Shown here piece by piece: positions 3,429 to 21,018 of a DNA stretch of 64,000 bases. Source of the DNA: Verrucomicrobiia bacterium (GTDB taxonomy: Bacteria > Verrucomicrobiota > Verrucomicrobiia > Opitutales > Cerasicoccaceae); contig JAUIHT010000001.1 of the NCBI GenBank assembly GCA_030432235.1, positions 744,001-808,000 on the forward strand, read 5' to 3'. Below the pieces are notes generated by a model, which saw only the letters and a program-made list of their open reading frames with translations, was not told where the DNA came from and did not search any database. The position numbers and the translations under genes were made by a program. Every line of letters starts with the position of its first letter. Position 1 is the stretch's first letter.

Positions 3429-6400
3429 ATGAAAAAAACACAGATTGCACTTGTCGCCAGTACCCTGACCCTGGCTGCGAACGCATGGGCTTATACTGAG
3501 TATAATGATACCATGCATGATGTCATGGGCGTTAATACGTCTTTCAGCCTATGGAACGATTATCTCAAAGACGGCGAATATGATAACATCGAAATAGAGA
3601 AAGCTTTTCGCTGGGTTCGAAACTATCAGCGGTGGGATTTTTTTGAAAGAGAGAACGATGTTTACTTCTGGAACGATGACACCGGTGGCAAAAAATTCTG
3701 GTTCGACGAGTACTATCGTCGCTTGAACGAACTGGATATCAATATCCTCGTGGTTCCCACTGGCGTGCCCAACTATGACTATACTGGGACTGGAGTAACG
3801 GCATGGCATCCGGGTACACCCCACCTTCCCGTAGACAATGGCGATGGCAGTGAGCCGGATCACTACAGGGAGCGTGCCGAGTTTCTTGCACAAATGGCGG
3901 CCCGCTATGGGCCGACTGGTGGTCATACGGAAACACGTCTGGAGACGGACGACAAGGTACAGGGGCTTGATTATGTTCGCTATTTTGAAGATGCGAATGA
4001 GCCCAACCAGACGACAAACGATATTATCTGGCCTGGTGAGCTTTTTGGGCACTGGTCCAATGCCGCGCATGATGGTCGCGGGGTAGCTCGTAATGGTAGC
4101 ATGCCGATCGCCGGCATTAAGCAAGGAGACCCCAATGCTGTTCACGTGTTGGCCGGAATGGTCGGCAACGGCGTGGAAGACAATTACTGGGGAAAACTTA
4201 CTTATGCGGCAGGGCGTAATGCCTTCGATATTCTTAATATGCACATGTACTGCCGTAGCAATCACCTCTTCCCTTTCGGTACCTATCCTTGGCCTCCGGA
4301 AGCCGTTGGGACTTCACCGGAGTATTATGTGATCGAAAGCGGATTGGATGAGATTCAGAACGCAGTGCGTTGGCGAGATCAGTTTAGCCCTGGTACGCCC
4401 ATTTGGCTGACGGAGTTTGGCTGGGATACCACCATCGACATTAATGGAACGCATTCGGTCACTTATGCGCCGGAACAAGCACAGGCGAACTATATCCTGC
4501 GTACCTTCCCTTTGGTTAAGCTCCTCGGTATTGACAAGGCCTTCCTGTACTTCGATTTCGACGGAGATACTTCCAAGCCCGGACTTTTTGCCAGTTCCGG
4601 CATGGTGACTGACCGCGATACCGGGCACCAGCCAAAGATTTCATACTACTACATGACGGCTATGAGCGCCGCAGTGGGCGAATACCATCTCGATGGTGCG
4701 TACTTGTTTGCCGTTGGGGATCCTAATGAGGTCTATGCCTACAGCTTTTCCAAGTCCGATGACGATATCGTCGTGATGGCGTTTTGTCGGGAAAAGGATT
4801 CCCACGTGGATAACGGAACGACGATTTCCAACTACGTCCTGAACGTGCCCAATATGGCGACATGCGAGTTGACCACTCCAACAGATAACGTCGTGGGCGG
4901 CGTCCAGTCCTCGCTTACGGTCAACCAACCATCCACAGCCAATGCGAATGTAACCATCCCCTTGCTCAGCGAAACACCGGTGTTCTTGAAAATAACGGGC
5001 ACGGACGTGCGCTTGAATGTCGTCCCTCAAGTATACGCCGGCAGTGATGTCGAGTTCGCTTCGCCCTTGTCCGACTACACTTTCCATGCCGAGGCTTCTG
5101 ACGCAGATGGGACGGTGGTTTCGTATCAATGGACCCAGATATCAGGTCCCACGGCCACGATGTCTTGGACGAGTACGGCCGACATGGAAGTCAGCAATCT
5201 CGGGGTGGGCGAGTACGTCTTCGAGGTGTCAGTGACGGATGACGACGGCGGTGTCGGACAGGACAGAGTGGTCCTGTTGGTAGCTGATCGGCAACCCTAC
5301 CTGAGTGGACCTCATGCGATTCCTGGTTTGATTGAGGCCGAAGATTTTGATGATGGTGGTGAAGGCGTGTCATACCATGACAATGACGTCGGCAACTACT
5401 ATGGCGAGTACCGGACGGATGTGGATGTCGACATCAATGACACCATCGGTGGCGGTTATCACGTTACCGGAATCACAACCGGTGACTGGCTGAAATACTC
5501 CGTGGACGTTCAGCAGAGCGGCTATTATCGGCTGGAGATTCACATTGAAGCCTTGGTTGAAGGTAAGCGTGTCTCGGTGGAGATAGATGGTAACTCCCTA
5601 ACCGGCTACACCCGGATAGGCAAAGTCGATGTATGGGGTGATTTTCCTGCTAATATCGTAGAGCCGGTGTGGCTGGACGCTGGTGAGCACGTCATGCGCA
5701 TTCTGTTCGTCAATGGCAATTCGAGATTCGACTCTATTGAGATTGTTCCGTTCGAAGACCCGTACGCAGATGGTGAGTACTATCGATTCTCTGTGGCTGA
5801 TGCATCGAAGCAAACCAAGCGGCTTTTTTACGAAACCAAGTGGAACGATGATGTCGATGTCACCGGTAGCGGAAACGACACTCTCGAGCTTTATGTTCGC
5901 GATGAGGCAGGAAGCGCAGGTGCGGATTGGGACAACGTGCGTTTGGCCATAAATGATGTATGGGGTGGTTACACTTGGGTTAATCTGGGCGACTACGCTG
6001 CCAGCATAGGGACAACCTGGACGAAGTTGAGCATACCGCTGACTGATTTCCCAAATATCGATTTTGAGCACCTGTGGTTGATGTCCCTCATATCCCAGTA
6101 TGCAGGGCCCTTCACGATTGGCGTGGACGAAGTAATATTCACCGGTTCTGGAACACCCTTTGTGTGGATGGGAGAAGGCCATACGGACAACGACTTCTCC
6201 GGCGGTACTGCCTTCACGCATGAGTTAGTCACCGATGGCGGCGTGGGCGCTGCACCCGTTTACAACGAACCGCCTTTTGTAGATGCTGGCTCGGATCAGC
6301 AGATTCGCTATCCGGAAGATTCCATTACTTTGAATGGTAGTGCGATCGATATCGACGGCACCGTGGCTTACTACGAATGGACTCAGGTAAGTGGTCCGAC

Positions 6401-7043
6401 CCCGGATTCTCTCACGGGAGTTTACTCGGCTGATTTGACTGTAACGGCTTCCACTTTCGGCGAGTACGTCTTCCGTTTGTCGGCCGAGGATGACGATGGC
6501 GGTGTTAGCGAAGACGACGTTATTCTGAAAGTAGAGGATGTCGGCGGGTATTTTACCATCAGTCACGATACCAGCAACTATCGCTCCATTGTGGTCTTTC
6601 ACGATGTTAGCTGGCAAGACGACGAGAACGTCGTCTCTGGCGGTAACACGAAACTGGAGTTCTATCTGAAGCGTGACGATTTGCAGTCAACGATAGATTG
6701 GGACGCGATCAACTTTTACCTGAGTGACACAACCCCGTTGGAAGTGGGGATCGTGGTGGGGGATTATGTTACCACCGTCGACGATCAATGGGTTCAGGTA
6801 AATGTGCCCTTGTCAGTGTTCTCCAACGCGGGGCTGGACTTGGAGCATGTGAAGTTTGCCATTATCGAGTCCGCATGGGCCGGGCCGTTTGTAGGCCTCG
6901 CCGTGGATGAAATCCGTTTTGAAGGCGGTACGGCGCCCTTCATATGGTACGGCGATGACCATCCCGACAATCCGTTTTCCGTGCCGTCTAACATGGACAT
7001 CCAGTTTTTGGGGTCCGGCGGCGTGATTCCCTCCCAGTTTTGA
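3429..7043 (+). CDS. Secreted clan GH-A glycoside hydrolase with PKD, CBM6 and tandem C-terminal modules
   Basis: The protein has 1,204 residues. An upstream in-frame GTG at 3408 would add seven residues, but the ATG at 3429 starts directly with a signal peptide (residues 1-21, cleavage after AWA). The catalytic domain spans about 25-500. It has DANEPN with Glu191 as probable acid/base and WLTEFGWDT with Glu329 as probable nucleophile, the arrangement of clan GH-A. After it come a PKD-like domain (about 530-620), a CBM6-like domain (about 626-776, IEAEDFD and TGDWLKYSVDV), module A1 (about 780-925), a second PKD-like domain (945-1037) and module A2 (1038-1185), a diverged copy of A1. The catalytic domain is related to the minus-strand glycosidase at 14672-16063. 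The exact GH family and substrate are not recognised; nearby sulfatases suggest a sulfated polysaccharide. The next gene begins 28 bp downstream. Confidence 0.8.
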   Translation: MKKTQIALVASTLTLAANAWAYTEYNDTMHDVMGVNTSFSLWNDYLKDGEYDNIEIEKAFRWVRNYQRWDFFERENDVYFWNDDTGGKKFWFDEYYRRLNELDINILVVPTGVPNYDYTGTGVTAWHPGTPHLPVDNGDGSEPDHYRERAEFLAQMAARYGPTGGHTETRLETDDKVQGLDYVRYFEDANEPNQTTNDIIWPGELFGHWSNAAHDGRGVARNGSMPIAGIKQGDPNAVHVLAGMVGNGVEDNYWGKLTYAAGRNAFDILNMHMYCRSNHLFPFGTYPWPPEAVGTSPEYYVIESGLDEIQNAVRWRDQFSPGTPIWLTEFGWDTTIDINGTHSVTYAPEQAQANYILRTFPLVKLLGIDKAFLYFDFDGDTSKPGLFASSGMVTDRDTGHQPKISYYYMTAMSAAVGEYHLDGAYLFAVGDPNEVYAYSFSKSDDDIVVMAFCREKDSHVDNGTTISNYVLNVPNMATCELTTPTDNVVGGVQSSLTVNQPSTANANVTIPLLSETPVFLKITGTDVRLNVVPQVYAGSDVEFASPLSDYTFHAEASDADGTVVSYQWTQISGPTATMSWTSTADMEVSNLGVGEYVFEVSVTDDDGGVGQDRVVLLVADRQPYLSGPHAIPGLIEAEDFDDGGEGVSYHDNDVGNYYGEYRTDVDVDINDTIGGGYHVTGITTGDWLKYSVDVQQSGYYRLEIHIEALVEGKRVSVEIDGNSLTGYTRIGKVDVWGDFPANIVEPVWLDAGEHVMRILFVNGNSRFDSIEIVPFEDPYADGEYYRFSVADASKQTKRLFYETKWNDDVDVTGSGNDTLELYVRDEAGSAGADWDNVRLAINDVWGGYTWVNLGDYAASIGTTWTKLSIPLTDFPNIDFEHLWLMSLISQYAGPFTIGVDEVIFTGSGTPFVWMGEGHTDNDFSGGTAFTHELVTDGGVGAAPVYNEPPFVDAGSDQQIRYPEDSITLNGSAIDIDGTVAYYEWTQVSGPTPDSLTGVYSADLTVTASTFGEYVFRLSAEDDDGGVSEDDVILKVEDVGGYFTISHDTSNYRSIVVFHDVSWQDDENVVSGGNTKLEFYLKRDDLQSTIDWDAINFYLSDTTPLEVGIVVGDYVTTVDDQWVQVNVPLSVFSNAGLDLEHVKFAIIESAWAGPFVGLAVDEIRFEGGTAPFIWYGDDHPDNPFSVPSNMDIQFLGSGGVIPSQF

Positions 7044-7071
7044 TTAACTAACTCCCATAGGAATAACGATT

Positions 7072-10000
7072 ATGAAAATACGAATACCCCTGATTGTATT
7101 AATCACATGCGTTATCGGTTTGGTGGCTCCGTCCTTGCTGGCGGTAACCATCGACGATTTTGAAGCGCGTGTTTACGACCCCGACAGCGATGCGCAAACC
7201 CTCAACATGCCGCATCGCTTGTTCACCCCGGAGAATTATGACCCAAATGCGGACTACCCGCTCGTTATCTATTTGCACGGCTTGGGTGCCGGTAACGGTG
7301 ACAACCTGCAGCAGATGGAGAACCACGGGCATGGAGGCATGTTTTTCGCCGAAGACGAACAGCAGGCCTACCAGCCATCGTTCGTGGTGCTGCCCCAAGA
7401 ACCTGGCGGCACCTCGGAGCACTGGCACCAGGGGACGGTGAAGCAGCTTTTGATGGGGTTGATCGATTCCTTGTTAACCGAGTTTCCCAATATCGACCCC
7501 GATCGCGTGTACATCGGTGGTATATCGATGGGAGGCCAGGGGGCCTGGGACCAGTTGGTGACTCAACCGAATAAATACGCTGCGGGTGTTGTCGTGGCGG
7601 GTGCTGGTGGTACTGGCGGCGCCGGCAGCATTGACCATTTGCCGCTATGGTTTCTGCATTCAACTCAAGATGGTGTGGTCAACGTAGCGTCGTCCGATAA
7701 TCGAGTGAGCGCACTGCGCGACCTTGGAGCTTCGACAATTTACAGTCGCTTTGGCGCCAGTGGTCACGTTATTGGCCCGAAATCCTGTCGCATTCCTGAG
7801 CTTTATAAATGGCTAGTTCAGCAGAGACAGGGCGAGGCACCTCAGGCGGCTCCGTTGCTGCGCATTACGGAATACTCCGTAGGTAGCGACCTGGACATCT
7901 CTGGTGTGGTCGCCGATGAAGCTGCCCAAGTGTCCGAAGTGAATTGGGAGAATAGCGCCGGTGGCAGTGGCCAGGCGACGCTTTTTGCTCAAAGTAGTGG
8001 AAGTTCGGCGTCTACGTTCACTAACTACTTCGAAGGCGGCAGCGGCTATTACGGCTTTCAGAATTGGCCTTTCACAAGCAAGGCTGCCTGGATAGTTGGG
8101 TTCAAAGAGTACCATCCGGTTGGCTTCGAAACGAGCGCGAAGTATCCGTGCATTATTGATGTCCACGGTACCGGTTTCAAATCTCGCGATCCCAGCAGCC
8201 TGAATGAGGGTCTTGCCCGATTCATCAATCAGAACAATGAGGTCGAAAACCCGATCAATGGACAAAAATACATCGCGATTTGCCCGGCAGGTGGTGAGTG
8301 GTTAAGTGTGGAAGAACTCTGCAACCTGATTGAGTACGCGTATAATCACCCAAACGTGGACCAGAGTCGCATCTTTGTCGGAGGTCTTTCTGGTGGGGGT
8401 ATGAGTTCCTTGCGCCTTCTGGGCCAGGCTTACGCATCCGATAATGTAACTGACATCACGCAATACGTCCAAAAGGTTGCTGGCGTTTACTCTCTTGCGG
8501 GTACCATGTTTTCGGGCTATGATCCCGCCATTGCGGCAACAAAGCCTATCTTGATTCATCATGGTGAGAATGATTCCACGCGCAGTCCTACGAATACCGC
8601 TAACCTTCGGGCCACGGTCGGCTCATCGGTAATCTTTAACTGCTTCCAGGGGCTGGGCCACTCTGGCAATGTTTGGGACAGAGTCTGGGTGGACGGCAAC
8701 GCGACAACCCCTATGGTGACGATCAACGGAATTCCGTCTGACCCTTACAAGAGCGTCTGGGAGTTCTTCATTGAAAATCAGAACGGTACTGCTTCGGCAT
8801 CGAGCGGTGCTGGCTGGTCGGTTGAAGGCATCGCGCTTTCGTCTGGTACCAATCAGATCAATATCACGGCGACGGGCTGGCCTTACTACGATAGTGACCC
8901 TGGCGAAACAACATTCAATCAGTCCGTTGATATCGATTTCACTGCCCCGAGCGGAGACACAACACCGCCGATCCTGGTTGTCAGCAGTCCAACGCACAGT
9001 GAATTTTCAATTAGCACGGAATCGTCATCATTAGCTTTTAGCGGTTCGGCTTCCGATAACGCGAGCTTGAGCAGTGTGACTTGGGAGACTGATCGAGGCC
9101 AGAGCGGAACCGCCTCCGGTACATCTTCCTGGTCGGCGACGGTACCGCTTAGCATGGGCTTGAACCGACTCAGCATTACGGCTGAAGACACCGCCGGTAA
9201 CATTCACACCCAGATATTCTATGTGGTCCGTACGGATACCATCGTCAACCAGGCTCCTCGTGTTCGTGGAGGCCCGGATATCCTGGCTTCGCTACCGGAT
9301 GACACGGTGGATCTGGACGCAACATTCTGGGATGATGGCTTGCCACAAGCGGCCACGCTTCAGTGGAGCAAGCAATCCGGACCGGGAACCGTTACCTTCG
9401 GCAACGCCAGTTCTGTGGATACCACGGCAACTTTCTCGGCGGTGGGCATCTATGTGCTGCGTTTGACCGCGGATGACACGGTGTACTCCGCTTATGATGA
9501 GATAATCGTGGAAATTACCGAAGCGCCCGTGGCGGCATCCGGTCCTGCAGTGGTCGGCATTAACTGCCATGGTGCTGAATACACCGCATCGGATGGAACC
9601 GTCTTTTTGTCGGATCGCGATGAAGGCTATCTCTTCGGTGGCGGCGGTTGGGATAATCCAACGGCGGATATCGCGGGTACCATTGACGACGAAATATACC
9701 GCTCAGGTATTACTCCGCGAGGTTCCGCTATCTGGACCAATATTCAGGTGCCCAACGGTGAGTATGTAGTCACTTTGAAACTGGTGTCTCCCAATAATGC
9801 CGTCGGGCAGCGAATTGGCGACTATTACATTGAGGAGAAGCGAGTTCTGAATGATCACGATGTCAGGGAGCATGTGGCAATGCTGACGGCACTTGATTAT
9901 GATTTTCTTGTGACCGTTACCGACGGAGTGCTCGATGTACGCTTGTTCGAGGTCAATGACCAGCCGGTGTTGTGCGGCATTCTTGTCCGCAACTCGGCTA

Positions 10001-13000
10001 CGGGAACTCCGGTTAATACCGCTCCGGTGGTGGATGCCGGCACAGATGAGACCGTGCTGCTGGCAAACGGGGCAAACCTGGACGGTACCGTCACGGATGA
10101 TGGCGTGGCCCCGGGCAATCCGACGCCCACCACGACCTGGAGCAAGGTAAGTGGTCCCGGGACCGTTGCCTTCGGCGATGCTAACGCAGTTGATACGACT
10201 GCGACATTCTCCGTCGAGGGTGTCTATGTCCTACAACTCTTTGCCACCGATGGTGACCTTAGCAGTACGGACACAGTCACGATTACCGTTCTCGACGAGT
10301 TGCCGCCTCAGCCGGCTCGTACCGTTCTGTATGATTTTGGCACGCAATCGATCCCAGGAAACGGCCATTGGAATCTGGTTCAGATGACCTTGGACGATGT
10401 GGTTCTAAATGCAACCGATACGGACGGAAATGCGACGCCTTTTGATCTGCTCATCACGGACGATTTCCGGAGCAGGGATACAACAGGCTCAACCGGGACC
10501 GGGCTTTATCCGGATGATGCCACCTCGGACTCATTCTATGCCGATGATGTCCGTAACGGTGAAGTGACGTTCGAAGACCTTGATCCGCAGGAACTGTACA
10601 CGATCAAGATCTTTGCCTCAGCGGCATCCGGTACGGGCGTGGGCGAGTACACCATCGGGGCCACGACGTTGACGTTGGATGCGATAGGAAACTCAACTCA
10701 GACGATTGCATTCACCGATCTGGCTCCCGACGTTTCGGGTAGTATCGTTCTGAACTGTGCTCCGCAGAATGGTGTCGGCAACGCATACATCAATGTTATC
10801 GAATTGATCGAGCAGTCGACCGGTTCGACGAACGAAGCTCCGGTCGTGGATGCGGGGGTGGATCAAACCGTCGCCATCTCCGCTGGGGCTACGCTGGACG
10901 GCACGGCTACGGACGATGGTGTGGCACCGGGCGACCCGACGCCAACTGTATTGTGGAGTAAGGTGAGTGGCCCGGGCACAGTGGGCTTCGGTGATGCTAA
11001 TGCCGCGGACACGACTGCCTCGTTTAGTGTTGTGGGTACCTATGTCCTGGAGCTTTTTGCAACGGACGGTGTCCTCAATAGCCAGGATACGGTAACCATT
11101 GTGGTCGAGACCGATCCACCGCAGGTATCTCGTCAGATTCTGTTTGACTTCGGTGGTCAGGTAATCCCGACCACCGGAAATTGGAATCTGGTGCGTCTCT
11201 TCCAGGACGATTTTGTGGAAAATGCCATCGATACAGATGGTAATGCGACCACGATCGACCTGAGGATCTCCGATGATTTCAGGAGTCGCGCCACCAATGG
11301 GCCTACCGGCACAGCTCTCTATCCAGACAACGCGACGTATGATTCCTTCTACACGGATGTTCACCGCTTGGCGGAAATCACACTGGAAGGATTGACTCCC
11401 TCGACAAACTACTCACTGACGATCTATGCTTCCGCAGCGTACGATCCCAATACTGATGCGGTTGGCGAGTACACGATTGGTAGCACGACCTTGACTCTGG
11501 ATGCTGCCGATAACACCACCCAAACGATTACCTTCAGCGATGTCCAGGCGGACGCAAATGGTGAAATCATCATCGGCTTCCATGCCACCGACGACCTGGG
11601 TAACGCCTACATCAATGTTTTGGACTTGGTGGAGAGCCCGAGCAACCAGCCTCCGGTAGCTGTGGCCGACAGCACCTCTGTGGATGAAGGCCAGAGTGTT
11701 ACCATCAATGTCCTGGCGAATGACAGTGATCCCGACAGTGGTCCATCCGCATTGACAGTGGTATCTGTTGGCTCGGCCAGCAATGGCTCTACGGAGATAT
11801 CCGGAAATCAGGTCATTTACACGCCTAATCCGGGATTCTACGGAGCCATTGATAGCTTCAGTTATACCATTAGCGATGGAGCCAGTATGGACCAGGCAAC
11901 CGTCACCGTAACGGTCAATGATACCTCCCTCGATGACGACCTGACCTCGGTAGGACTTACGGCGGCGACCATCGGCACTGGTGCTACTGGAAACAGCCGC
12001 ATTCTGGCCAACGGTGACTGGGAAGTGAATGGATCGGCCACCGGACTTGGTGGCACGGCAGACAGCCTGGTCTTCGAAAACGAGATGGTGTCCGGAGACT
12101 TCCGTGCACTCGTCAACATTCGTGATTTGGCTGGAGGAACATCGCCTCAGGCTGGCCTGCTGGTGCGTGAGTCTCTGAACGCGGATGCGCGTACCGTTGC
12201 CATAGCCACCGATAGTAGTACGGCTTACCAGATTGGGGAGCGCACGACCACAGGTGGCGCCTTCTCATGGGCGACGTTGACGAGCTCCTACAGCTACCCG
12301 GATGCCTGGGTGCTCCTGGAACGACAGGGCGACGATATCCATGTCGCCGTATCCTCGGATGGCGTGACCTTTGTCGAGGAGGATGTCATCACGTTATCCA
12401 GTCTGGCTTCCGATGTGTACGTCGGCGTCTACTCCACCAGTGGTTCGACGAGTACCACAGCTCGGGCCGTTTTTGCGGATTATGAGCTGACCTTGCTCGG
12501 CGGAGTCACCACTGTGAACTTCGATTTTGGAGTAAGCAGTCTGACTACGCCCGGAAACTGGAACAACATCACGGATATCAGCTCAGGCTCGGTGACGGAC
12601 GCCGTGGATTCCGATGGATGGGGGACCGGCATCAACGCAGCCATCACCACGGCCTTCGCTAATCAGATTGATGGCGGGGTTGCTTCCGGTGCGGTCTTCC
12701 CGGAAACCGCACAGCGAGACTCCATGTACCTGACCAATGCGACTCCGAGTGCAGAAGTCCTCTTTTCCGGACTGGACCCGGCGAAGACATATAGCTTCAC
12801 GTTCTTCTGCTCGCGTGATGCGACTGACAACCGCACTGCAGTCTATACCATTGGCGCGCAGTCCGTTACTCTTAACGCCTCAGGAAATACCGATACGACG
12901 GTGACGATTAGTAATGTCACCTCCAACGGCTCCGGCGAGGTTGTGGTAGGGATCAGTCGTGATACTGGGGTTACCTGGTCCTACCTCAGCGTAATCAGTG

Positions 13001-13014
13001 TGGAATACCAGTAA
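7072..13014 (+). CDS. Giant secreted two-esterase multidomain protein
   Basis: This 1,980-residue protein has a signal peptide (residues 1-24). The first alpha/beta-hydrolase (about 30-255) resembles CE1/feruloyl-esterase-type enzymes: GISMGG with Ser152, candidate Asp200 (TQDG) and His232 (SGHVIG). A second alpha/beta-hydrolase (about 320-570; GLSGGG with Ser440, Asp near 501, His530) sits inside an Ig-like region that is uninterrupted in the paralogue at 17593-21018. Then follow an Ig-like domain, PKD-like domains (about 726-818, 981-1079, 1253-1348), a malectin-like domain (823-978), three copies of a module starting with a DFG-type strand (1082-1247, 1352-1521, 1814-1980), a cadherin-like domain (1524-1619) and a LamG/DUF1349-like domain (1621-1809). 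It probably removes ester groups from an extracellular polysaccharide. TAGGAAT lies 6-12 bp before the ATG. It is likely co-transcribed with the preceding glycosidase and ends at a strong terminator. Confidence 0.8.
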   Translation: MKIRIPLIVLITCVIGLVAPSLLAVTIDDFEARVYDPDSDAQTLNMPHRLFTPENYDPNADYPLVIYLHGLGAGNGDNLQQMENHGHGGMFFAEDEQQAYQPSFVVLPQEPGGTSEHWHQGTVKQLLMGLIDSLLTEFPNIDPDRVYIGGISMGGQGAWDQLVTQPNKYAAGVVVAGAGGTGGAGSIDHLPLWFLHSTQDGVVNVASSDNRVSALRDLGASTIYSRFGASGHVIGPKSCRIPELYKWLVQQRQGEAPQAAPLLRITEYSVGSDLDISGVVADEAAQVSEVNWENSAGGSGQATLFAQSSGSSASTFTNYFEGGSGYYGFQNWPFTSKAAWIVGFKEYHPVGFETSAKYPCIIDVHGTGFKSRDPSSLNEGLARFINQNNEVENPINGQKYIAICPAGGEWLSVEELCNLIEYAYNHPNVDQSRIFVGGLSGGGMSSLRLLGQAYASDNVTDITQYVQKVAGVYSLAGTMFSGYDPAIAATKPILIHHGENDSTRSPTNTANLRATVGSSVIFNCFQGLGHSGNVWDRVWVDGNATTPMVTINGIPSDPYKSVWEFFIENQNGTASASSGAGWSVEGIALSSGTNQINITATGWPYYDSDPGETTFNQSVDIDFTAPSGDTTPPILVVSSPTHSEFSISTESSSLAFSGSASDNASLSSVTWETDRGQSGTASGTSSWSATVPLSMGLNRLSITAEDTAGNIHTQIFYVVRTDTIVNQAPRVRGGPDILASLPDDTVDLDATFWDDGLPQAATLQWSKQSGPGTVTFGNASSVDTTATFSAVGIYVLRLTADDTVYSAYDEIIVEITEAPVAASGPAVVGINCHGAEYTASDGTVFLSDRDEGYLFGGGGWDNPTADIAGTIDDEIYRSGITPRGSAIWTNIQVPNGEYVVTLKLVSPNNAVGQRIGDYYIEEKRVLNDHDVREHVAMLTALDYDFLVTVTDGVLDVRLFEVNDQPVLCGILVRNSATGTPVNTAPVVDAGTDETVLLANGANLDGTVTDDGVAPGNPTPTTTWSKVSGPGTVAFGDANAVDTTATFSVEGVYVLQLFATDGDLSSTDTVTITVLDELPPQPARTVLYDFGTQSIPGNGHWNLVQMTLDDVVLNATDTDGNATPFDLLITDDFRSRDTTGSTGTGLYPDDATSDSFYADDVRNGEVTFEDLDPQELYTIKIFASAASGTGVGEYTIGATTLTLDAIGNSTQTIAFTDLAPDVSGSIVLNCAPQNGVGNAYINVIELIEQSTGSTNEAPVVDAGVDQTVAISAGATLDGTATDDGVAPGDPTPTVLWSKVSGPGTVGFGDANAADTTASFSVVGTYVLELFATDGVLNSQDTVTIVVETDPPQVSRQILFDFGGQVIPTTGNWNLVRLFQDDFVENAIDTDGNATTIDLRISDDFRSRATNGPTGTALYPDNATYDSFYTDVHRLAEITLEGLTPSTNYSLTIYASAAYDPNTDAVGEYTIGSTTLTLDAADNTTQTITFSDVQADANGEIIIGFHATDDLGNAYINVLDLVESPSNQPPVAVADSTSVDEGQSVTINVLANDSDPDSGPSALTVVSVGSASNGSTEISGNQVIYTPNPGFYGAIDSFSYTISDGASMDQATVTVTVNDTSLDDDLTSVGLTAATIGTGATGNSRILANGDWEVNGSATGLGGTADSLVFENEMVSGDFRALVNIRDLAGGTSPQAGLLVRESLNADARTVAIATDSSTAYQIGERTTTGGAFSWATLTSSYSYPDAWVLLERQGDDIHVAVSSDGVTFVEEDVITLSSLASDVYVGVYSTSGSTSTTARAVFADYELTLLGGVTTVNFDFGVSSLTTPGNWNNITDISSGSVTDAVDSDGWGTGINAAITTAFANQIDGGVASGAVFPETAQRDSMYLTNATPSAEVLFSGLDPAKTYSFTFFCSRDATDNRTAVYTIGAQSVTLNASGNTDTTVTISNVTSNGSGEVVVGISRDTGVTWSYLSVISVEYQ

Positions 13015-13035
13015 AGGACGCATCTACTGGTATAC

Positions 13036-13068
13036 AAAAAGCCCCCGCTCCAAAGGCGGGGGCTTTTT
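13036..13068. terminator. Strong bidirectional intrinsic terminator
   Basis: AAAAAGCCCCCGC pairs perfectly with GCGGGGGCTTTTT around a 7-nt loop. The A and T tracts on both sides let it work in both directions, which fits its place between the plus-strand esterase gene and the minus-strand sulfatase operon. Confidence 0.93.
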
Positions 13069-13237: not shown

Positions 13238-14647
13238 TCACGATGGCGCGTCAGCGCGATAAGCCGTGTACGCTTGTGGGAACAAGGTTTTCCCATCAGA
13301 GAAGCCTTCGGGGCGATTTTTTAAATGCGCGACCATTTGCTCGCGCCATGTCTTCAAAGTGTCCTGATGGTCATCTCGGCTGGCCAAATCGTGGCAGTCG
13401 TATGGGTCTTGTGTGCGGTCAAACAACTGCTCAGCACCTGTAATTGGGTTCCAGACATACTTCCAGTCCTGGCTGACAAGACACTGGTAAGCACATTCTT
13501 TATCATAGCAGGGGGAGTGCTCATGATGGTAGTAGAGGCGGGAGGCATTGGACGGCTTTTCGTTCAGGTATCCTGCAAGGCTTAGCCCATTGACTGTTTC
13601 GGGGATGGGTACACCGGCTGCTTCCAGAAGTGTCGGCATGATATCCTCCAGGCCAACAAGTCCATTGGATTGATGGTTTCTCAGGCACTCATGGTTTGCG
13701 GGTGGGTTGACAATGAAAGGTATCCTGGCGGATGCATCGTAGGGATACGTTTTGCGCCACAAATGATGATCACCCAGCATCTCTCCGTGGTCGGAGGTAA
13801 ACAGGGTGTAGGTATCCTGGAGCAATCCAGCACGGCTCAGGAACTCCATGAAGCGCCCAATCTGGGCATCGATGTAGGCCAGGTAAGCAAAAAAGCCCGC
13901 GCGGGCAACGTGGTTTTCCTCATCGCTAAGCTGTCCCCGCCAGGCATTGATGTTCATCGGGTACTGCGTGTCATTGGCATGATGTGCTGCCCATTCACCT
14001 GCCACAGGCCCCGGCAAGGTTTTGCGCATGAACTTGTCAAAGTAGTGTTGAGGCGGGCACCAGGGCGGATGGGGCCCGTTGAAGGAAAGGCAGAGGAAGA
14101 AAGGACGCGTTGGATCGCGTTTTTCCAGTCGCTCAATCGCCTGACTGGTCAGCCAGGTCTCCTCCATCTGAATTTCCGGGAGGTGGTTTGGTCGTGCCAT
14201 CCAGGAGTTGGCATGGACGCCGTGTGCCATGCGTGCTCGAGGAACGCCTGTAGTGCGATCAATCCACTCATCATAATCGACCGGTATGATTAGTTCCTCA
14301 AAACCCAGGTGCAGGCGCTTGGGATGAAAATGGGTTTTGCCGACATTGATGGTTTGATACCCCGCACGAGCTAGTTCACCTGCCAGGGGTCGTGTATAGT
14401 TCCACGGCCTGTGGTCCTGGTAGCCGACCATTTCGTGCCCGTCCGGCGTCATGCCGGTCATGATGGAACGTCGAGCAGGGATGCAGGACGGGCAGGGGGA
14501 AAAGGCGTTCGTGAAAGTTACGCCGGCTGCGGACAACGAATCCAGGTGCGGCGTTTCAACCGCGGGATTGCCAAGCCTGCCCAGGCAATCACCTCTCCAA
14601 TGATCAGTAAGAATGAGTAAGAGGTTGGGGCGGGGAGAGCTGGGCAT
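13238..14647 (-). CDS. S1-family sulfatase
   Basis: This 469-residue protein is a type I (formylglycine) sulfatase. It shows the N-terminal metal-binding start PNLLLILTDHWRGD and the modification motif CIPARRSIMTG, with Cys55 in the CxPxR core as the residue converted to formylglycine. Later blocks are the GKTHFHP region, TLFTSDHGEMLGDH (metal ligands) and KTYPYDASARIPF, all typical of S1 enzymes. No clear signal peptide is visible, so location is uncertain. It is the last gene of a four-gene minus-strand operon, 24 bp after the glycosidase, and ends before the bidirectional terminator. It should remove sulfate esters from a carbohydrate; the S1 subfamily cannot be assigned by eye. The Cys-type motif needs a maturase that is not in this window. 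Confidence 0.93.
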   Translation of the reverse strand: MPSSPRPNLLLILTDHWRGDCLGRLGNPAVETPHLDSLSAAGVTFTNAFSPCPSCIPARRSIMTGMTPDGHEMVGYQDHRPWNYTRPLAGELARAGYQTINVGKTHFHPKRLHLGFEELIIPVDYDEWIDRTTGVPRARMAHGVHANSWMARPNHLPEIQMEETWLTSQAIERLEKRDPTRPFFLCLSFNGPHPPWCPPQHYFDKFMRKTLPGPVAGEWAAHHANDTQYPMNINAWRGQLSDEENHVARAGFFAYLAYIDAQIGRFMEFLSRAGLLQDTYTLFTSDHGEMLGDHHLWRKTYPYDASARIPFIVNPPANHECLRNHQSNGLVGLEDIMPTLLEAAGVPIPETVNGLSLAGYLNEKPSNASRLYYHHEHSPCYDKECAYQCLVSQDWKYVWNPITGAEQLFDRTQDPYDCHDLASRDDHQDTLKTWREQMVAHLKNRPEGFSDGKTLFPQAYTAYRADAPS

Positions 14648-14671: not shown

Positions 14672-16063
14672 TTACATTTTAATGAATACCGGCGTTTCCG
14701 TGACCTCCAATTTGATCGCATCAAATCCTGCGCTTTCAAACGGCACCTCAGGCGCCGAACCTTCCTCCATGGGAGAAAGCTCAACTGACTTGGGTCGAGC
14801 GGGCATGTCCTTAAGGGTTACTTTCTTGCTCTGTCCATCCCCAGTGGGGGACCAGGCAACCCAGATGGTTCCGTCACGGTTGTTGCCTGCCTTGTATTCG
14901 TAGACGTAGAGATCGCCAGACTTCGGGGTTACGACGCGGCTGAAGCGGTAATCGCCCAGCGTATCGTAAAGGTGCTTGATGGCCCAAAAGGACTTCTTCG
15001 GCTTAAAGTTGCGGGTTAGCCCGGAAGCGCCGTGGGTACGCGCGCGATCCTTGTCGTTGTAGAAGTAGAGATAGGCTCGACCCACATCCCGTTCGGAAAA
15101 CAGGAGAAATGAACGAACAAGCCATTGGGCCTGATTTAGCTCGGTCTCGCCTCGCCATCCAAACTGCTTGAAGCCGCCCGTCCGCTCACTCAGAGCTGCT
15201 TCGGAGGGAGCGTCCCAGCCAAATTCCGTAATCCATACCGGCTTGCCTGGGGCGTTTTTGTTGCGCCATTCAATGGCGTCGTTCACCATGCTGAGGTACT
15301 CGGTGTTGTCGTTTTCCGGAAAAGTCCGTTCCCAAGGGTGCTCGCCTTCCCCGCGGGGAAGCAGCGCGTACGTGTGAATGCTGATGACGTCATACAGCTT
15401 TTTGATATCCGGATCATCGAAGATTTCGTTCAGGGATTTTGCCCATCTGTCCTCGTCGCCCTCTTTGACCGTACAGGTCAGGATGAGCGTCTCCGGGCTG
15501 GCGCGGCGAATGCCCCTGGCCATGCCTTTGAACAGGGTAGTGTAGAGCTCGCTATCAAACTCTTCACCAGGCTCGTTACCAATCTCAATTGAAGTGAAGA
15601 GCTTTTTGCCATCCTTTCCCCGGTATTTGGCGAGCGTATAGCCGTACTCTTCCATCCAGCCTTCCTGGTTCTCCCATATATCGAAAAAATCGTCGTTCCT
15701 CTTGGGGCCGAGAGTGCCGAACTGGGCACATAGGTCGATTTCGAACCCAGCTTCTTTCCACGACGCGTAGACACCGTCATCCCAGTTAAAGCCTTGGTTG
15801 TTTTCCGGAAAGACAATCTCATCGCCCGGTTTTTCCACATCCCAGCTTATATTGTGGTAGCTGCGAGCAAGCTGGCTAACCTCGCGATATAACTCGGGCT
15901 TGAACGATATGTGAGCGTTGATGCCCATGAAGTCACGCATGAGGGGTTTCGTGGGTTCAGCGTATGAAGTCGCCAGGTTAGCCAGCGTCACAACGCAGGA
16001 TAGGGCCGCTATTTTTAAAGTCATGATGCGCTTATTGGGATTGCAGGTTATCATATCGTTCAT
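14672..16063 (-). CDS. Secreted clan GH-A glycoside hydrolase
   Basis: The protein has 463 residues with a signal peptide. Translation may start at the first Met or at Met14 (ATG at 16024), which gives a more usual signal peptide ending near residue 35 (TSYA). The barrel carries IGNEP with Glu164 as probable acid/base and VWITEFGWD with Glu280 as nucleophile. A short C-terminal beta domain ends in ETPVFIKM, like the ETPVFLKI at the end of the catalytic region of the 3429-7043 protein. The two are therefore paralogues, this one without the PKD/CBM tail. Its start is 12 bp after the upstream sulfatase stop, so it is third in the minus-strand operon. It probably cleaves the same or a related sulfated glycan; the GH family is not recognised. 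Confidence 0.82.
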   Translation of the reverse strand: MNDMITCNPNKRIMTLKIAALSCVVTLANLATSYAEPTKPLMRDFMGINAHISFKPELYREVSQLARSYHNISWDVEKPGDEIVFPENNQGFNWDDGVYASWKEAGFEIDLCAQFGTLGPKRNDDFFDIWENQEGWMEEYGYTLAKYRGKDGKKLFTSIEIGNEPGEEFDSELYTTLFKGMARGIRRASPETLILTCTVKEGDEDRWAKSLNEIFDDPDIKKLYDVISIHTYALLPRGEGEHPWERTFPENDNTEYLSMVNDAIEWRNKNAPGKPVWITEFGWDAPSEAALSERTGGFKQFGWRGETELNQAQWLVRSFLLFSERDVGRAYLYFYNDKDRARTHGASGLTRNFKPKKSFWAIKHLYDTLGDYRFSRVVTPKSGDLYVYEYKAGNNRDGTIWVAWSPTGDGQSKKVTLKDMPARPKSVELSPMEEGSAPEVPFESAGFDAIKLEVTETPVFIKM

Positions 16064-16075
16064 GTGTTGGATCGT

Positions 16076-17596
16076 TCATTTAAGGGTTGTGAGAATCTGC
16101 TCGGGAGCATCAGGGAATCCATTAATGCCGCGCGAGCAGTCAAACTGGTAAAGGCGTTTTCGGGCGCGTTCTTGAAACGGGAAGGTACGGAGCTCATTCC
16201 CCTCGAGTGCCTCCGGTGGCCCCTGTAGACGAATAGCCTCTATGAGGTAATTCCTCATGGTGCTGGTAACCTCCGGTGAAAGGTCTGCCTGATTGTTCGT
16301 TTCTTCTGGATTCTCTTTGAGATTGAAGAGCTGCTCACGTGCTCCGTTTGACATGAAAATGTACTTCCAGTCGTCTTTGCGGGCCATCGCTTTGAACTCG
16401 GGCGTCCCGGGGATGCCATGATAGCCAAGCAGTAGCTTGCGACCGCTTTTTTTACCATCAAGCATACCAAGGATGTCGATGCCTTCCCGCAGTTCGGATG
16501 AGCCAGAGGCTGTGGTTGCAAGCGCAAAGAGGTCGGTCAGGCAGACCAGTTGATCGTTCGTTGTCTCCGCTTCGATTCGGTTCGGCCAACTCAGCAGGAA
16601 GGGAATGCGGCATGAGGATTCGAAAAAGCTCTCTTTCTGCCAGGCATGGTGATCGCCCATGTGATCACCATGGTCGGAGACAAAGCAGATTAGCGTGTTA
16701 TCTGCATCCGGACGTGCCTCAACAGCATCCAGTACCCGCCCCAGACATTGGTCGATGTAGGATATCTCACCGTAGTAGCGCGCGTAGAGAATCTGGTTGT
16801 GTATGTCGGAAACATCCTCGGCGAACACGGCATGGTTCATCCACGGGATTTGCTCGTCCATGTGATCAAGCGCTATGTCGCCCCGACAGGGTAGCGGCAT
16901 GCGATCCGGATCGTACATGCGGTTGAAGGGCAGGGGAGGGGCCAGCGGTGGATGGGGGCCGATGTACGAGATAAAGCCGAAGTAAGGGCGCTCGTCCTCC
17001 GAGTTAATCTGCTCAATCGCCCTGTCACTGGCCCAAGCCTCGACACCGAGGTTCGCCGGCAGAGGGCTCATTTGCGGCATGTAATACATCTCTGAGCGTT
17101 CGCCCATCAGCATCTCAACGAAATCATACTCCGGGTGCTGCTCGGATATCCATCGGGAATAAGCATCCACTTTTCGTCTATCGGGCGTGTAGTACATCTC
17201 TTCACTATGCAGGTGTACGTCATAGCCGAGATCTTCGTCCCAGGGTTTTGAATGAAATTTCCCGATGCCGAAAGTACGATAGCCCAGATTGCGCATGGTT
17301 TCCGCCAGATAAGGCCCGCAACGCTCCCGGATGGTGCCCTTATGGTTTTCGGAAGGTGGCAATACCCGGTTGGAGAACATGCGTATGCTTGGGGGTTCGC
17401 AGCCGGTTCGAATGATGTAGCGAGCAGGCATGCAGACCGGGCAGGTCGAGTACGCGTTGGTGAAGATGACTCCACGCCGCACCAATCGGTCCAGGTTTGG
17501 CGTGTATATACGCGAATTACCCAGCGCCGCTATGGTATCGTGACGTTGTTGATCGGTAACTACAAAAAGGATATTCGGGCGGCTTGACTGGCTCAT
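16076..17596 (-). CDS. S1-family sulfatase
   Basis: This 506-residue type I sulfatase starts with PNILFVVTDQQRHD (metal site) and has CMPARYIIRTG with Cys55 as the formylglycine precursor. FGIGKFHSKPWDED and CFVSDHGDHMGDH supply further active-site and metal residues, and KESFFESSCRIPF follows as expected. The start overlaps the stop of the upstream esterase gene by 4 bp, indicating translational coupling. It differs enough from the other sulfatase in the operon (13238-14647) that they probably attack different sulfate positions or different sugars; that is inference. No signal peptide is obvious. Confidence 0.93.
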   Translation of the reverse strand: MSQSSRPNILFVVTDQQRHDTIAALGNSRIYTPNLDRLVRRGVIFTNAYSTCPVCMPARYIIRTGCEPPSIRMFSNRVLPPSENHKGTIRERCGPYLAETMRNLGYRTFGIGKFHSKPWDEDLGYDVHLHSEEMYYTPDRRKVDAYSRWISEQHPEYDFVEMLMGERSEMYYMPQMSPLPANLGVEAWASDRAIEQINSEDERPYFGFISYIGPHPPLAPPLPFNRMYDPDRMPLPCRGDIALDHMDEQIPWMNHAVFAEDVSDIHNQILYARYYGEISYIDQCLGRVLDAVEARPDADNTLICFVSDHGDHMGDHHAWQKESFFESSCRIPFLLSWPNRIEAETTNDQLVCLTDLFALATTASGSSELREGIDILGMLDGKKSGRKLLLGYHGIPGTPEFKAMARKDDWKYIFMSNGAREQLFNLKENPEETNNQADLSPEVTSTMRNYLIEAIRLQGPPEALEGNELRTFPFQERARKRLYQFDCSRGINGFPDAPEQILTTLK

Positions 17597-20500
17597 GGAT
17601 TCAGCCCTGTTAAATTCAATCGGATAAACCGAACTTTATCCAAATCACTGAGTGCATGCTGGTCGGTGACGGTAACCTCTACCAGGCCATCTCCGGTTTC
17701 CATGACTTCAGCCGAGCCCGTCCATTCTGAACTTCCAGCCGGGCGCGTAGCAATGGCTTCCCAACTATCCGGCGCCAGGGAACCGGAAACCTCCACCGTG
17801 TAAGTGATGTCGCTGGAATTAGGGCGCAAGAAGGTGATTGCTAATCGGCCATCACTCGCTGTGCCTGCGACCGTATTCTTGTTTGAGACTGAGGGATTGG
17901 TGCCGAGAGAGTACTCCGTGTAGTTTGAGAGTCCGTCGCTATCGGGGTCGGCGAGCGGCCCAACATAATCATCATTTCCTGTCTGTCCCGGAAAGAAGTC
18001 GGGAATCCAACCGTCATAGTCCAAAGTGACTTCGTTCTTTTCTACCAGAATGAGTGTATTGATGTAGGCGTTTTGCCCGGCTTCCGCAGGGATGACTGAC
18101 AGTACGAGGCTTCCGCTGGGATCCGGATTGAGCTCGCTGAACTGAATGGTGCTTGTGGTGTTCCCGATCGCATCAAAGGTTTTTGTGACGGTATCGATGG
18201 AGTATTGACCCATGCCAGCTCCAGATGCGGCTGCAGCAAACAGAATGATGTCGTAGGTGCGCCCGGGATCCAGGTCTTCAAAAGTGACGCCTCCGTGGCG
18301 GTTGTCGTCGGCATAGAATGAGTCATAGGTAGCTTCGTTTGGATAAAGACCTGTGTCCTCTGGGCCGGTAGTGTTGCGGCCTCTGAAGCTACCGGTTATT
18401 TTCAGATCGAATGAAGTTGGTGAGCCGCTGGTATCTTCTGCGTTTAGGACTACATGATCCAAGGGTTGCTGAACCAGATTCCAGGTTTCGGAAGTGGGAA
18501 TGCTTTGCGTCCCAAAGTCAAAACGTACGGTGAGCCCCGGTGCTGTGGGTGGACGGTGCAAGACGTTTACTATAACCGTGTCCGAGGTTTCATATTCGCC
18601 ATCTGAGGCACTGACCTTCAGCTCGTAAACGCCAGCTTTGGAAAAAGTGGCATCTGTATCCGCACCGGCGGGATTGTTAAAACGAACTTTGCCGGAGCCC
18701 TTTTCCTTCTTCCAGAGGATGTTCGGAGTGGCAGTGCCAGGGGCCCGGCCGTCATCGATGATAAAGCTTGAGAGGCTTGCGCCTTCGGCCAGCGTGACCG
18801 TCACTTCGTCGATCAGTTCGACGATGGGCGGTTGGTTGGCCTGTGGGCCGATCACGGCTTCCTGTATCAAAATGCCGCAGAGAAGGAAATCATCTCTGCG
18901 CTGATGCAGCCTGACCGTAAGTTTGCCATCGGAGACAGTAACCGGGAACGAGAAATCCAAGGCGGTGTAGCGAGGCACGTAATCCAGCACGTCAAGGTCG
19001 TGCAGTACGCGTTTTTCTTCGATGTAAAAGTCGGCCAGTCTCTCTCCTTCAAATGGTCGGGGGGTAACGGTTTTCAACGTCACGATGTAATGACCGTTGG
19101 GGAAAGGAATGTTCCAGATTGAGGAGCCACGCGGGACAATAGCGGTTTGATAAATCTCCTGATCTTCCGTGCCAGCCATGACGGTCCCCGAGTCCCAGGA
19201 GCCACCACCGAACAGATAGTTTGCATCGCGGTCAGACACATATTCTGTGCCGTCGGTAGCGGTAAAGGCGTCTCCGTTGCAGTTGACTCCTAACAGGCCC
19301 GGCCCAAACGCCGGGTGCGCCTCCTCGGGTACGGTCACCGTCGTTTCGTCAAAAGCGGTTTTCTCAGTATCGTCCCCGGTTAGGCGCAGAACGTAGTCGC
19401 CCGGCTCGGAAAAAGTTGCCGTGGTATCCAGAGCGTTTGAGTCCTCGAAAGTGACCGTTCCGGGGCCGGATATTTTTGTCCAGGTGTAGGTTGCACTGAC
19501 CGGTAAACCATCGTCCCCTGCTGAGCCGTCGAGCTCGGCGATTCCCTCCGGTCCCGGCAACAGTAGATCGGGCCCTGCCCGGACAAAGGGTGTTGTGTTC
19601 TCTGCCGGAGCAACCCGGTACAAATAGAATACCTGGCTGCGGCTATTGCCTGCGGTATCGGTGACGGAGATCGTGGTAAGGTTAAAGCCCATTTCCAAAG
19701 GAATGTCCGCGGACCAGTCTGCCAAGCCGGTAGCGCTACCGCTTTGACCACGGTCCGTGCTCCAAGTGACTGCAGCCAAGCCGCCTGCATCTGATGCCGT
19801 GCCACTGAAGGTGAGTTCCGACAGTTCAGTGCGAAGTGAGAAGTCGGAATGTGTCGGAGCGTTGACGGTGAGCAGGGGAGGCGTGGCGTCTCCGGCGGGC
19901 ACGGAGAAGTCAATCGTTACAGCCTGACTGAAAGTGGTGGCCCCATCGGGATCACCGATTGCGTATGGGCCACTGGTGGCGATGATATTGATAAGGTTCG
20001 AGCCTGATTCCAGAGACACACCTTCGACGGACCAGGGCTGTTCTCCCGAGTCCGGGTCAGGTGTGTCTAGATTTACAGGCCCGGTAATAGGAGCTCCAGA
20101 TGATGGCGCGACGTCTCCACGATACCAGTCCACCTGAGTGGCTCCGGTCGCCTCATCGAGCGCAAATCCTGAAATGTCCAGAGAGTCTCCCACCGCGTAT
20201 TCGGTAATCCTCAGCAATGGTGCAGCCTGCATAGCTTCCCCTCGCTTCTGCTCAACCAGCCATTCGTAGAATTCCAGAACAGAGCAGACCTTCGGGCCGA
20301 TGACATGGCCGAATGAAATGAATTCTGTATAAATGTGAGGGGCACCAAGATTGCGCAGTGCGCGGGCGCGGCTGCGCGATGAGCCTTCACCGACAACACC
20401 GTCTGCGACCGAATGCCATTGCCAGATGGGGATATGATCAACGTTCGAAGCACCGCCCGATCCTCCTGCGCCAGCCAGGATGAATGATGCGGCATACTTC

Positions 20501-21018
20501 TCTGGTTGAGTCGTCAATTGGCTCCAGGTTCCTGCGCCACCCATCGAAATGCCGCCAATATAGATACGGTCTTGATCGATGTTTGGGAACTCATTCAGAA
20601 CGGAGTCAATCAAGCCCATCAATAACTGCTTAACTTCACCCTGGTGCCAATGCTCGGTAGTGCCACCTGGCTCCTGTGGTAGTAGGACGAAAGAGGGTTG
20701 TATGGCCTGTTGCTCGTCTTCGGCGAAATACATTCCACCATGGCCATGATTCTCCAGTTGCGAAACGTTGTCTCCGTTGCCTGACCCGAGGCCGTGAAGA
20801 TATATTATCAAAGGATACTTTTCACCCGGCTCTGTATTTTCAGGTATGTAGAGTCGGTTGGACATGTTGAATGTCCCCGGGTCGTTATCGGGATCGTAGA
20901 CCCGGGGCTCAAAATCATCGATCGATACCGCGGAAGCGGTGGTCAGTGTTGCTAAAAAAAGGCCAAGGGCCAGTGCGGGAATCCGGTGGCTTTCGAATTT
21001 GGGGAATTGGCGAGCCAT
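17593..21018 (-). CDS. Secreted CE1-like esterase with Ig, PKD, malectin and C-terminal modules
   Basis: The protein has 1,141 residues with a signal peptide (residues 1-30, ending ASA). The N-terminal alpha/beta-hydrolase is very close to that of the 1,980-residue protein at 7072-13014: GISMGG with Ser158, VADG with Asp207, FGHVIG with His238. Then come an Ig-like region (uninterrupted here), a second Ig-like domain, a PKD-like domain, a malectin-like domain, another PKD-like domain, and one copy of the DFGTQSIP/WNLVQ module. The C-terminus carries a DPDSDGLSNYTEYSLGTNP calcium-binding thrombospondin-3-like segment followed by a small beta domain, common at the ends of verrucomicrobial secreted proteins. 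It is the first gene of the esterase-sulfatase-glycosidase-sulfatase operon. The likely role is deacylation of the polysaccharide before or during cleavage. Confidence 0.82.
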   Translation of the reverse strand: MARQFPKFESHRIPALALGLFLATLTTASAVSIDDFEPRVYDPDNDPGTFNMSNRLYIPENTEPGEKYPLIIYLHGLGSGNGDNVSQLENHGHGGMYFAEDEQQAIQPSFVLLPQEPGGTTEHWHQGEVKQLLMGLIDSVLNEFPNIDQDRIYIGGISMGGAGTWSQLTTQPEKYAASFILAGAGGSGGASNVDHIPIWQWHSVADGVVGEGSSRSRARALRNLGAPHIYTEFISFGHVIGPKVCSVLEFYEWLVEQKRGEAMQAAPLLRITEYAVGDSLDISGFALDEATGATQVDWYRGDVAPSSGAPITGPVNLDTPDPDSGEQPWSVEGVSLESGSNLINIIATSGPYAIGDPDGATTFSQAVTIDFSVPAGDATPPLLTVNAPTHSDFSLRTELSELTFSGTASDAGGLAAVTWSTDRGQSGSATGLADWSADIPLEMGFNLTTISVTDTAGNSRSQVFYLYRVAPAENTTPFVRAGPDLLLPGPEGIAELDGSAGDDGLPVSATYTWTKISGPGTVTFEDSNALDTTATFSEPGDYVLRLTGDDTEKTAFDETTVTVPEEAHPAFGPGLLGVNCNGDAFTATDGTEYVSDRDANYLFGGGSWDSGTVMAGTEDQEIYQTAIVPRGSSIWNIPFPNGHYIVTLKTVTPRPFEGERLADFYIEEKRVLHDLDVLDYVPRYTALDFSFPVTVSDGKLTVRLHQRRDDFLLCGILIQEAVIGPQANQPPIVELIDEVTVTLAEGASLSSFIIDDGRAPGTATPNILWKKEKGSGKVRFNNPAGADTDATFSKAGVYELKVSASDGEYETSDTVIVNVLHRPPTAPGLTVRFDFGTQSIPTSETWNLVQQPLDHVVLNAEDTSGSPTSFDLKITGSFRGRNTTGPEDTGLYPNEATYDSFYADDNRHGGVTFEDLDPGRTYDIILFAAAASGAGMGQYSIDTVTKTFDAIGNTTSTIQFSELNPDPSGSLVLSVIPAEAGQNAYINTLILVEKNEVTLDYDGWIPDFFPGQTGNDDYVGPLADPDSDGLSNYTEYSLGTNPSVSNKNTVAGTASDGRLAITFLRPNSSDITYTVEVSGSLAPDSWEAIATRPAGSSEWTGSAEVMETGDGLVEVTVTDQHALSDLDKVRFIRLNLTGLNP

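Follow-up and report, generated by a model that had tools for sequence, protein, structure and literature searches.

A candidate glycan-use gene cluster in a Verrucomicrobiia bacterium, with an uncharacterised GH39-like glycosidase and a predicted, switchable operator

Gene content of the locus

A marine Verrucomicrobiia bacterium (assembly GCA_030432235.1; 5.7 Mb, in the same family as Cerasicoccus frondis, and labelled G000 here) carries two convergent runs of glycosidase, esterase and sulfatase genes on contig JAUIHT010000001.1. We analysed them within a 64,000-nucleotide stretch of that contig (positions 744,001 to 808,000, hereafter the window), and coordinates below are those of the window. 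The original prediction, made from the letters of this stretch, had described six genes in two arms that converge on one terminator and had read them as a single polysaccharide system. All six open reading frames were found where it had placed them:

3408-7043, plus strand: LGH open reading frame, 1211 amino acids; GTG start in the list of open reading frames, with an in-frame ATG at 3429
3429..7043, plus strand: LGH, secreted GH39/PslG-like clan GH-A glycosidase with two PKD, one CBM6-like and further unassigned domains
7072..13014, plus strand: EST2, 1980 amino acids, secreted giant with two alpha/beta-hydrolase (esterase) domains and PKD, malectin and Big domains
13041..13063, both strands: terminator-like hairpin between the convergent arms
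13238..14647, minus strand: SULA, 469 amino acids, Cys-type S1 sulfatase without signal peptide; closest solved relative 7oz8 (BT1918, S1_46)
14672..16063, minus strand: sGH, 463 amino acids, secreted, single-domain GH39/PslG-like glycosidase
16076..17596, minus strand: SULB, 506 amino acids, Cys-type S1 sulfatase without signal peptide
17593..21018, minus strand: EST1, 1141 amino acids, secreted esterase with PKD and malectin domains

Within the arms, adjacent genes overlap by 4 bp in one case and are otherwise 28, 24 or 12 bp apart, the pattern expected of two operons. The 223-bp gap between the arms (13015-13237) contains the terminator-like hairpin at 13041-13063, which scores on both strands (2 found; shuffle mean 0.6, standard deviation 0.7), in agreement with convergence on one terminator. 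By inspection of the translations, LGH, EST1, EST2 and sGH have hydrophobic, signal-like N-termini.

Two distant GH39-like glycosidases

The glycosidase family had not been recognisable from the window, and neither enzyme falls cleanly in a well-characterised family when Pfam, NCBIfam and the Protein Data Bank (PDB) are searched. No Pfam or NCBIfam match covers the catalytic domain of LGH at E values up to 0.1. sGH matches the broad GH5 model PF00150 over residues 159-286 only, at 26.8 bits (cut-off 23.5, +3 bits); PDB searches with sGH put GH39 first. The nearest solved relatives by sequence are the GH39 enzymes PslG and 5jvk at 18-19% identity, with sGH profile matches at E 1.9e-10 and 2e-9, respectively. 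The Pfam model of GH39, PF01229, misses both LGH and sGH at E 0.1, which weighs against plain GH39 membership, with the limit that the model was not benchmarked on PslG; its four matches in G000 all lie elsewhere.

An AlphaFold model of the LGH domain built from 24 sequences (predicted local distance difference test, pLDDT, 78; predicted template modelling score 0.84) aligns best with 5jvk (Z 26.8, root-mean-square deviation 3.5, 375 aligned) and PslG (Z 26.0-26.2), followed by GH30 as the next family (Z 22.5), and PslG also ranks first in Foldseek. For sGH, single-sequence structure prediction gave no usable model (pLDDT 35). All 24 aligned sequences share N173-E174 and E312 of LGH (model numbering); in the numbering of the 1211-residue reading frame, the catalytic glutamates are E198 (acid/base) and E336 (nucleophile). 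Both proteins keep the GH39 catalytic positions, an NE acid/base and a TEFG/SEFG nucleophile, and look like distant GH39/PslG-type clan GH-A enzymes. The covered part of PMC11912335 describes PslG as a retaining endo-beta-glucosidase in GH39, from an exopolysaccharide cluster, and names beta-glucosides, galactosides and xylosides, among others, as GH39 substrates. The modelled fold of LGH suggests a retaining, possibly endo-acting enzyme, with a substrate that is not fixed by the fold.

LGH and sGH are homologous at 22% identity, and in a tree they fall into separate groups, apart also from a longer ‘mid’ type, with support of 99-100. A recent duplication was rejected on these grounds, and the paralogy between the arms that had been proposed for the glycosidases holds only in a deep sense. 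In scans of genome contigs with short-peptide patterns, which reach close relatives only, the LGH alignment recovered one named relative, Cerasicoccus frondis NBRC 105381, and sGH alone recovered none.

Esterases and sulfatases

EST1 has one alpha/beta-hydrolase domain and EST2 two, with the serine motifs GISMG and GLSGG, so the description of EST2 as a two-esterase giant was right. Compared over 289 aligned positions, EST1 and EST2 are 65.7% identical in their N-terminal esterase domains, which are therefore clearly paralogous, as had been claimed for the esterases of the two arms. The nearest solved esterase is 3doh.

SULA and SULB match PF00884 (E 4e-43 and 9e-42) and carry the C-x-P-x-R motifs CIPAR and CMPAR, which makes them S1 formylglycine sulfatases of the Cys type, as foreseen. 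An addition to the earlier reading is that neither has a signal peptide. The catalytic core begins with the first residues, and on this ground we infer a cytoplasmic location, with desulfation probably intracellular. The best PDB match of both is 7oz8 (286 bits for SULA, 173 bits for SULB), the S1_46 sulfatase BT1918, which is specific for 3S-GlcNAc and removes the 3-O-sulfate according to the covered part of PMC10154620; the resemblance of the window sulfatases to it is that of a best PDB match. The presence of two Cys-type sulfatases and of three esterase domains makes it reasonable to expect a target glycan that is both sulfated and acylated.

Genes around the two arms

The Pfam scan covered 16 window genes (positions 1-33 kb, to 33,148) and, with further inspection, gave the following neighbours:

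1..1539, plus strand: C-terminal part of PILX, a giant GspK-like pseudopilin protein of 1209 amino acids; full gene at G000:C37:741910-745539 (L060:3911-7540)
1641..3194, plus strand: GH20-like glycosidase (PF00728, E 2.1e-9), no signal-like N-terminus
21369..22238, plus strand: PEPC, secreted, with a PEP-CTERM-like tail; homologs in all six kits (see below)
22407..23432, minus strand: LacI-family regulator (PF00356, E 5.7e-12), recognition helix VSTTTVS
23769..24809, minus strand: Gfo/Idh/MocA oxidoreductase
24816..27371, minus strand: GH116 glycosidase (PF04685 and PF12215), no signal-like N-terminus
27996..28889, plus strand: TPR protein, first gene of the importer operon
28919..30748, plus strand: solute-binding protein of an ABC importer (PF13416, PF01547)
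30785..32293, plus strand: ABC sugar permease (PF00528), UgpA/MalF-like
32309..33148, plus strand: ABC sugar permease (PF00528), GlcU/MalG-like
33296-33384, minus strand: tRNA-Ser (GCT), after the importer operon

The tail of PEPC, judged by its motif, is one that we take to be PEP-CTERM. The originally given span of 3429-21018 located the six genes correctly and was too short for the system, whose genes and predicted operator sites begin roughly 3 kb ahead of position 1 (L060) and reach about 33.1 kb.

Recurrence of the kit in related genomes

LGH profile matches occur in 14 of 372 genomes of the order at E 1e-10. Full-length LGH is confined to four of the 372, with at least seven copies; the other ten matching genomes have the mid or small types only. 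Since three candidates were scored per genome, these copy numbers are lower bounds. We mapped the surroundings of all seven LGH copies by BLAST and Pfam and found a recurring set of genes, or kit, around six of them (kits A to F, A being the window; kit B also lies in G000, about 0.35 Mb from the window). The LacI clade, PEPC and PILX are near six of the seven LGH copies, that is, in all six kits. An esterase is present in five kits (not seen in C) and an S1 sulfatase likewise in five (not seen in D), while GH42 was found in B, C and F and GH78-like proteins, only 22-25% identical to one another, in D, E and F, so that five of the six have one or the other. The SULB copies of kits B and F are 67-70% identical to that of the window; with a threshold of 65% identity, SULB-like proteins are found in kits A, B and F and also in one genome of another family (G041, locus L101). 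More distant SULB relatives (52-58%) in six genomes of family f14 (L102-L107) have no LGH or kit beside them.

Seven copies of the LacI clade (54-100% identity) were found in 273 genomes, all in the four genomes with LGH. Six of them have an LGH no more than about 25 kb away; the remaining copy (L110) stands beside a mid-type glycosidase, with a uronate isomerase and a PfkB kinase nearby.

Predicted operators

A palindromic motif, approximately GTTTTAC-NN-GTAAAAC, occurs in five promoter regions of the window locus. Among them are those of the plus arm and of the minus arm, the latter a divergent promoter, and, outside the originally stated span, that of GH116 and the ABC importer. The motif is seen in the sequence; that the LacI-type protein binds it is our inference. 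The predicted sites in the window are:

3243..3258, no strand: GTTTTACAGTTTCAAT, upstream of LGH
3275..3290, no strand: GTTTTACTGGATAAAC, upstream of LGH
21272..21287, no strand: ATGTTACAGGTAAAAC, divergent EST1/PEPC promoter region
27458..27473, no strand: ATTTTACCTGTAAACC, 86 bp upstream of the GH116 start
27775..27790, no strand: GGTTTACAGGTAAAAT, GH116/importer region
27955..27970, no strand: GGTTTAATGTTTAAAT, 25 bp upstream of the importer operon

The EST1/PEPC region also has a single palindrome, TATGCCACCGGCATA.

The seed consisted of three partly similar sites chosen by eye upstream of a FlaA-like gene, PILX and LGH. With the resulting three-site matrix, the next five of about 64,000 window positions are 3275, 21272, 27458, 27775 and 27955, at 13.7-14.9 bits, and the following position scores 11.6. 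When one region at a time was left out, the left-out site ranked first of about 69,750 positions in five of five cases (13.6-19.1 bits; best elsewhere 11.0). A de novo automatic pipeline converged on an identical seed and on the same five of the seven regions, each at rank 1, and chose a fourth site within the GH116 region; none of 200 shuffled sets and none of 200 sets of other intergenic regions did as well, the latter drawn from 32 intergenic regions of G000 of which a few are the kit's own. The exact form TTTAC-NN-GTAAA occurs four times in 5.7 Mb (control 1), twice in the GH116/importer region.

The window motif has diverged from the operator of the sister kits. A repeated-palindrome search of 40 upstream regions returned ATTCAA-N4-TTGAAT, and kits B, C and E have 11 exact TTCAA-N4-TTGAA sites, all intergenic and 50-275 bp from kit gene starts. 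With a matrix built from these three kits, the summed score of kit D was reached by 0 of 300 shuffles, and so was that of kit F, neither kit having been used in the matrix. At 8 bits or more, kit D has two of five promoters (shuffle mean 0.68, maximum 3) and kit F five of eight (mean 0.13, maximum 2), compared with three of 60 control regions, two of them copies of kit E. Genome-wide, WTTCAA-N4-TTGAAW occurs at 40 places in 10 genomes versus eight for the reversed control: two in G000 (one in kit B) and 12 in G001 (three in kit C; control 3). One of the G001 places lies 62 bp upstream of an sGH gene (64% identical to the window's) and more than 2 Mb from the kit, so that sGH appears to be part of the regulon there in trans. 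Other exact sites were mapped at L115-L118 (in G003, G008 and G007, and one in G001). Far from the kits, a perfect sister-kit operator also stands at L114:9422-9437 (G001:C1:4883421), between divergent genes and about 100 bp from each start; these encode a 798-residue protein without Pfam match and a 1041-residue Big_9 protein.

The recognition helices differ along with the motifs: the kit A regulator reads VSTTTVS, versus VSISTVS in kits B, C, E and F. Strong window-type sites occur at two other loci whose regulator reads VS[TA]TTVS, namely L113 (16.6 bits, upstream of a solute-binding protein) and L109 (20.0 bits, about 8 kb from its regulator and beside an esterase). At L108, L110 and L112 no window-type site exceeds 11.7 bits.

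Several observations weigh against reading the locus and its kits as one regulated system. The seventh LGH copy (L043, in G001) has no kit; the count of PEPC homologs was made within kits; and PILX was rejected as a kit-specific part, as it is generic, with matches in 10 of 10 family genomes. The small glycosidase, at six other loci examined (L017, L040, L041, L045, L047 and L049), has no surrounding kit, and near the relative at L045 there is only a generic LacI-type match (26%). The expected co-occurrence in other genomes was borne out for LGH, LacI, PEPC, esterase and sulfatase, and is to be qualified for sGH. Sulfatases of kits C and E are 26-34% identical to SULA/SULB and esterases of kits E and F 32-35% identical to those of the window, so that substrates may differ between kits. 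Most sister-type sites genome-wide fall outside kits, exact ones at L048, L057/L085 and L101 among them. Kit A itself has no exact TTCAA-N4-TTGAA site, and the sister matrix finds none of its seven promoters at 8 bits or more, with a summed score reached by 16 of 300 shuffles. Finally, a cruder seed statistic for the window motif is weak, being reached by seven of 300 shuffles and by 89 of 300 random 28-64 kb stretches.

The two arms might instead be independent glycan operons of a sulfatase-rich genome that lie tail to tail by chance, their gene types being merely common. G000 does have 32 S1 sulfatase matches (E 1e-20) and 20 esterase-protein matches (E 1e-10), many of the latter partial, convergence alone is uninformative on function, and sGH and SULA are without close counterparts in other kits. 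Yet LGH, SULB, esterase, LacI and PEPC recur jointly elsewhere, and a single operator motif links both arms; we consider a chance juxtaposition improbable.

Proposed glycan-use system

The kit co-occurrence at other loci and the operator motif common to both arms support the single polysaccharide system of the original prediction. Quite likely, the two arms, the LacI regulator, PEPC, the GH116 and oxidoreductase genes and the ABC importer together form one sugar-inducible regulon for an acylated, sulfated polysaccharide. As predicted from the gene products, secreted LGH and sGH, as retaining GH39/PslG-like enzymes, would cut the polymer while secreted EST1 and EST2 would strip acyl groups that block the glycosidases, and PEPC would be anchored at the cell surface. 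The ABC transporter would take up sulfated oligosaccharides, to be finished inside the cell by SULA and SULB as cytoplasmic formylglycine sulfatases together with the GH20 and GH116 enzymes and the oxidoreductase. The LacI-type protein would repress both arms, PEPC and the importer through the GTTTTAC-NN-GTAAAAC-like palindrome until a sugar or oligosaccharide releases it.

The GH42 and GH78-like enzymes of the sister kits suggest a heteropolymer as the probable substrate, one that contains galactose, deoxy-sugars or both. The 3S-GlcNAc-specific relative of SULA and the GH20-like gene of the window make an amino sugar possible as well.

The likeness to PslG allows another interpretation, in which the GH39/PslG-like enzymes act on the bacterium's own exopolysaccharide and the cluster remodels a self-made glycan rather than foreign food. 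PslG, which belongs to an exopolysaccharide cluster (PMC11912335, covered part), is the nearest solved relative by sequence, and sGH relatives in other genomes stand outside kits. This is very unlikely given an ABC sugar importer and GH116 in the predicted regulon, with GH20-like and sulfatase genes alongside, the GH42 and GH78-like enzymes of sister kits, and the absence of any glycosyltransferase among the 16 window genes of 1-33 kb scanned with Pfam.

Beyond the regulon for an acylated, sulfated polysaccharide, a joint reading can be offered tentatively, with more doubt than confidence. LGH may found a new, lineage-restricted family of secreted glycosidases with the GH39 fold, whose members would open an acylated sulfated glycan not described so far, and the kits may be kept apart by a co-evolved switch: with the helix changed from VSISTVS to VS[TA]TTVS, the operator would shift from TTCAA-N4-TTGAA to a palindrome of the TTTTA-N4-TAAAA type. 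G000 would then run two orthogonal copies, possibly for two glycan variants.

Comparison with known systems

Polysaccharide utilization loci (PULs) of the SusC/SusD type in Bacteroidetes co-locate glycosidases, sulfatases and esterases under a substrate-responsive regulator. The window locus resembles them in this co-location under a regulator; the 16 scanned genes include no SusC, SusD or TonB gene and have an ABC importer instead. The LGH model has the same barrel-plus-sandwich fold as the GH39 enzymes PslG (Pseudomonas aeruginosa) and 5jvk (Bacteroides cellulosilyticus WH2). LGH differs from these in its PKD and CBM6-like modules and in its setting among the sulfatases and esterases of a kit.

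Sulfated algal glycans resist degradation and have specialists for some of them among Verrucomicrobiota (PMC8857213, covered part). The clusters described there, in Puniceicoccaceae and Akkermansiaceae metagenome-assembled genomes, hold GH78 and GH106 rhamnosidases amid sulfatases and likely galactosidases, and these fucosidase/rhamnosidase-sulfatase clusters resemble the sister kits in their GH78-like and GH42 genes. The covered portion of its main text has no mention of GH39, esterase, LacI, PEP-CTERM or Cerasicoccus. In a literature search no hit named the present gene cluster, and neither ‘sulfatase’ nor ‘CAZyme’ occurs in the covered part of PMC10288369.

Where a genome has many sulfatases and glycosidases, as in these bacteria, sorting the enzymes into functional sets is difficult. 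At this locus, the predicted operator would delimit an enzyme set and tie the two arms and the importer to one inducer, and LGH stands out as a candidate for a catalytic family not yet characterised. Matching a regulator type to its operator type would also predict distant members of a regulon, adding the unlinked sGH in a sister genome. On present sequence evidence, the cluster is one for glycan use that combines a predicted, switchable operator with a GH39-like enzyme not yet characterised, and the substrate question is approachable in a cultured relative, Cerasicoccus frondis.

Other observations

PILX-like pseudopilin proteins of about 1200 residues have matches in all 10 genomes of the family, with 6-58 matched segments per genome. 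Two models, NF037980 (GspK) and TIGR02600 (Verru_Chthon cassette protein A), match the N-terminus of PILX weakly, with scores under their cut-offs. A literature search for ‘Verru_Chthon cassette’ found no paper, and the covered part of PMC6388578 has no mention of GspK, pseudopilin, GH39, LacI, type II secretion or PEP-CTERM.

Kits B and F also share a pair of 53% identical proteins, u892 and u908 (L016:15535-18213 and L054:13932-16658), with 37-38% identical relatives in L112. Neither has a Pfam or NCBIfam match, and u892 has no PDB match either; they are possibly an undescribed enzyme family. At L101, the SULB relative (65%) adjoins a GH106 rhamnosidase, a PL8 lyase and another sulfatase.

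At L113, the LacI copy (44% identity) stands beside a solute-binding protein, two short-chain dehydrogenases, a mandelate-racemase-like enolase and a metallo-beta-lactamase-fold protein, a gene set that looks like a non-phosphorylating sugar-acid pathway. By inspection only, the LacI copy at L108 lies in surroundings that resemble those of L113.

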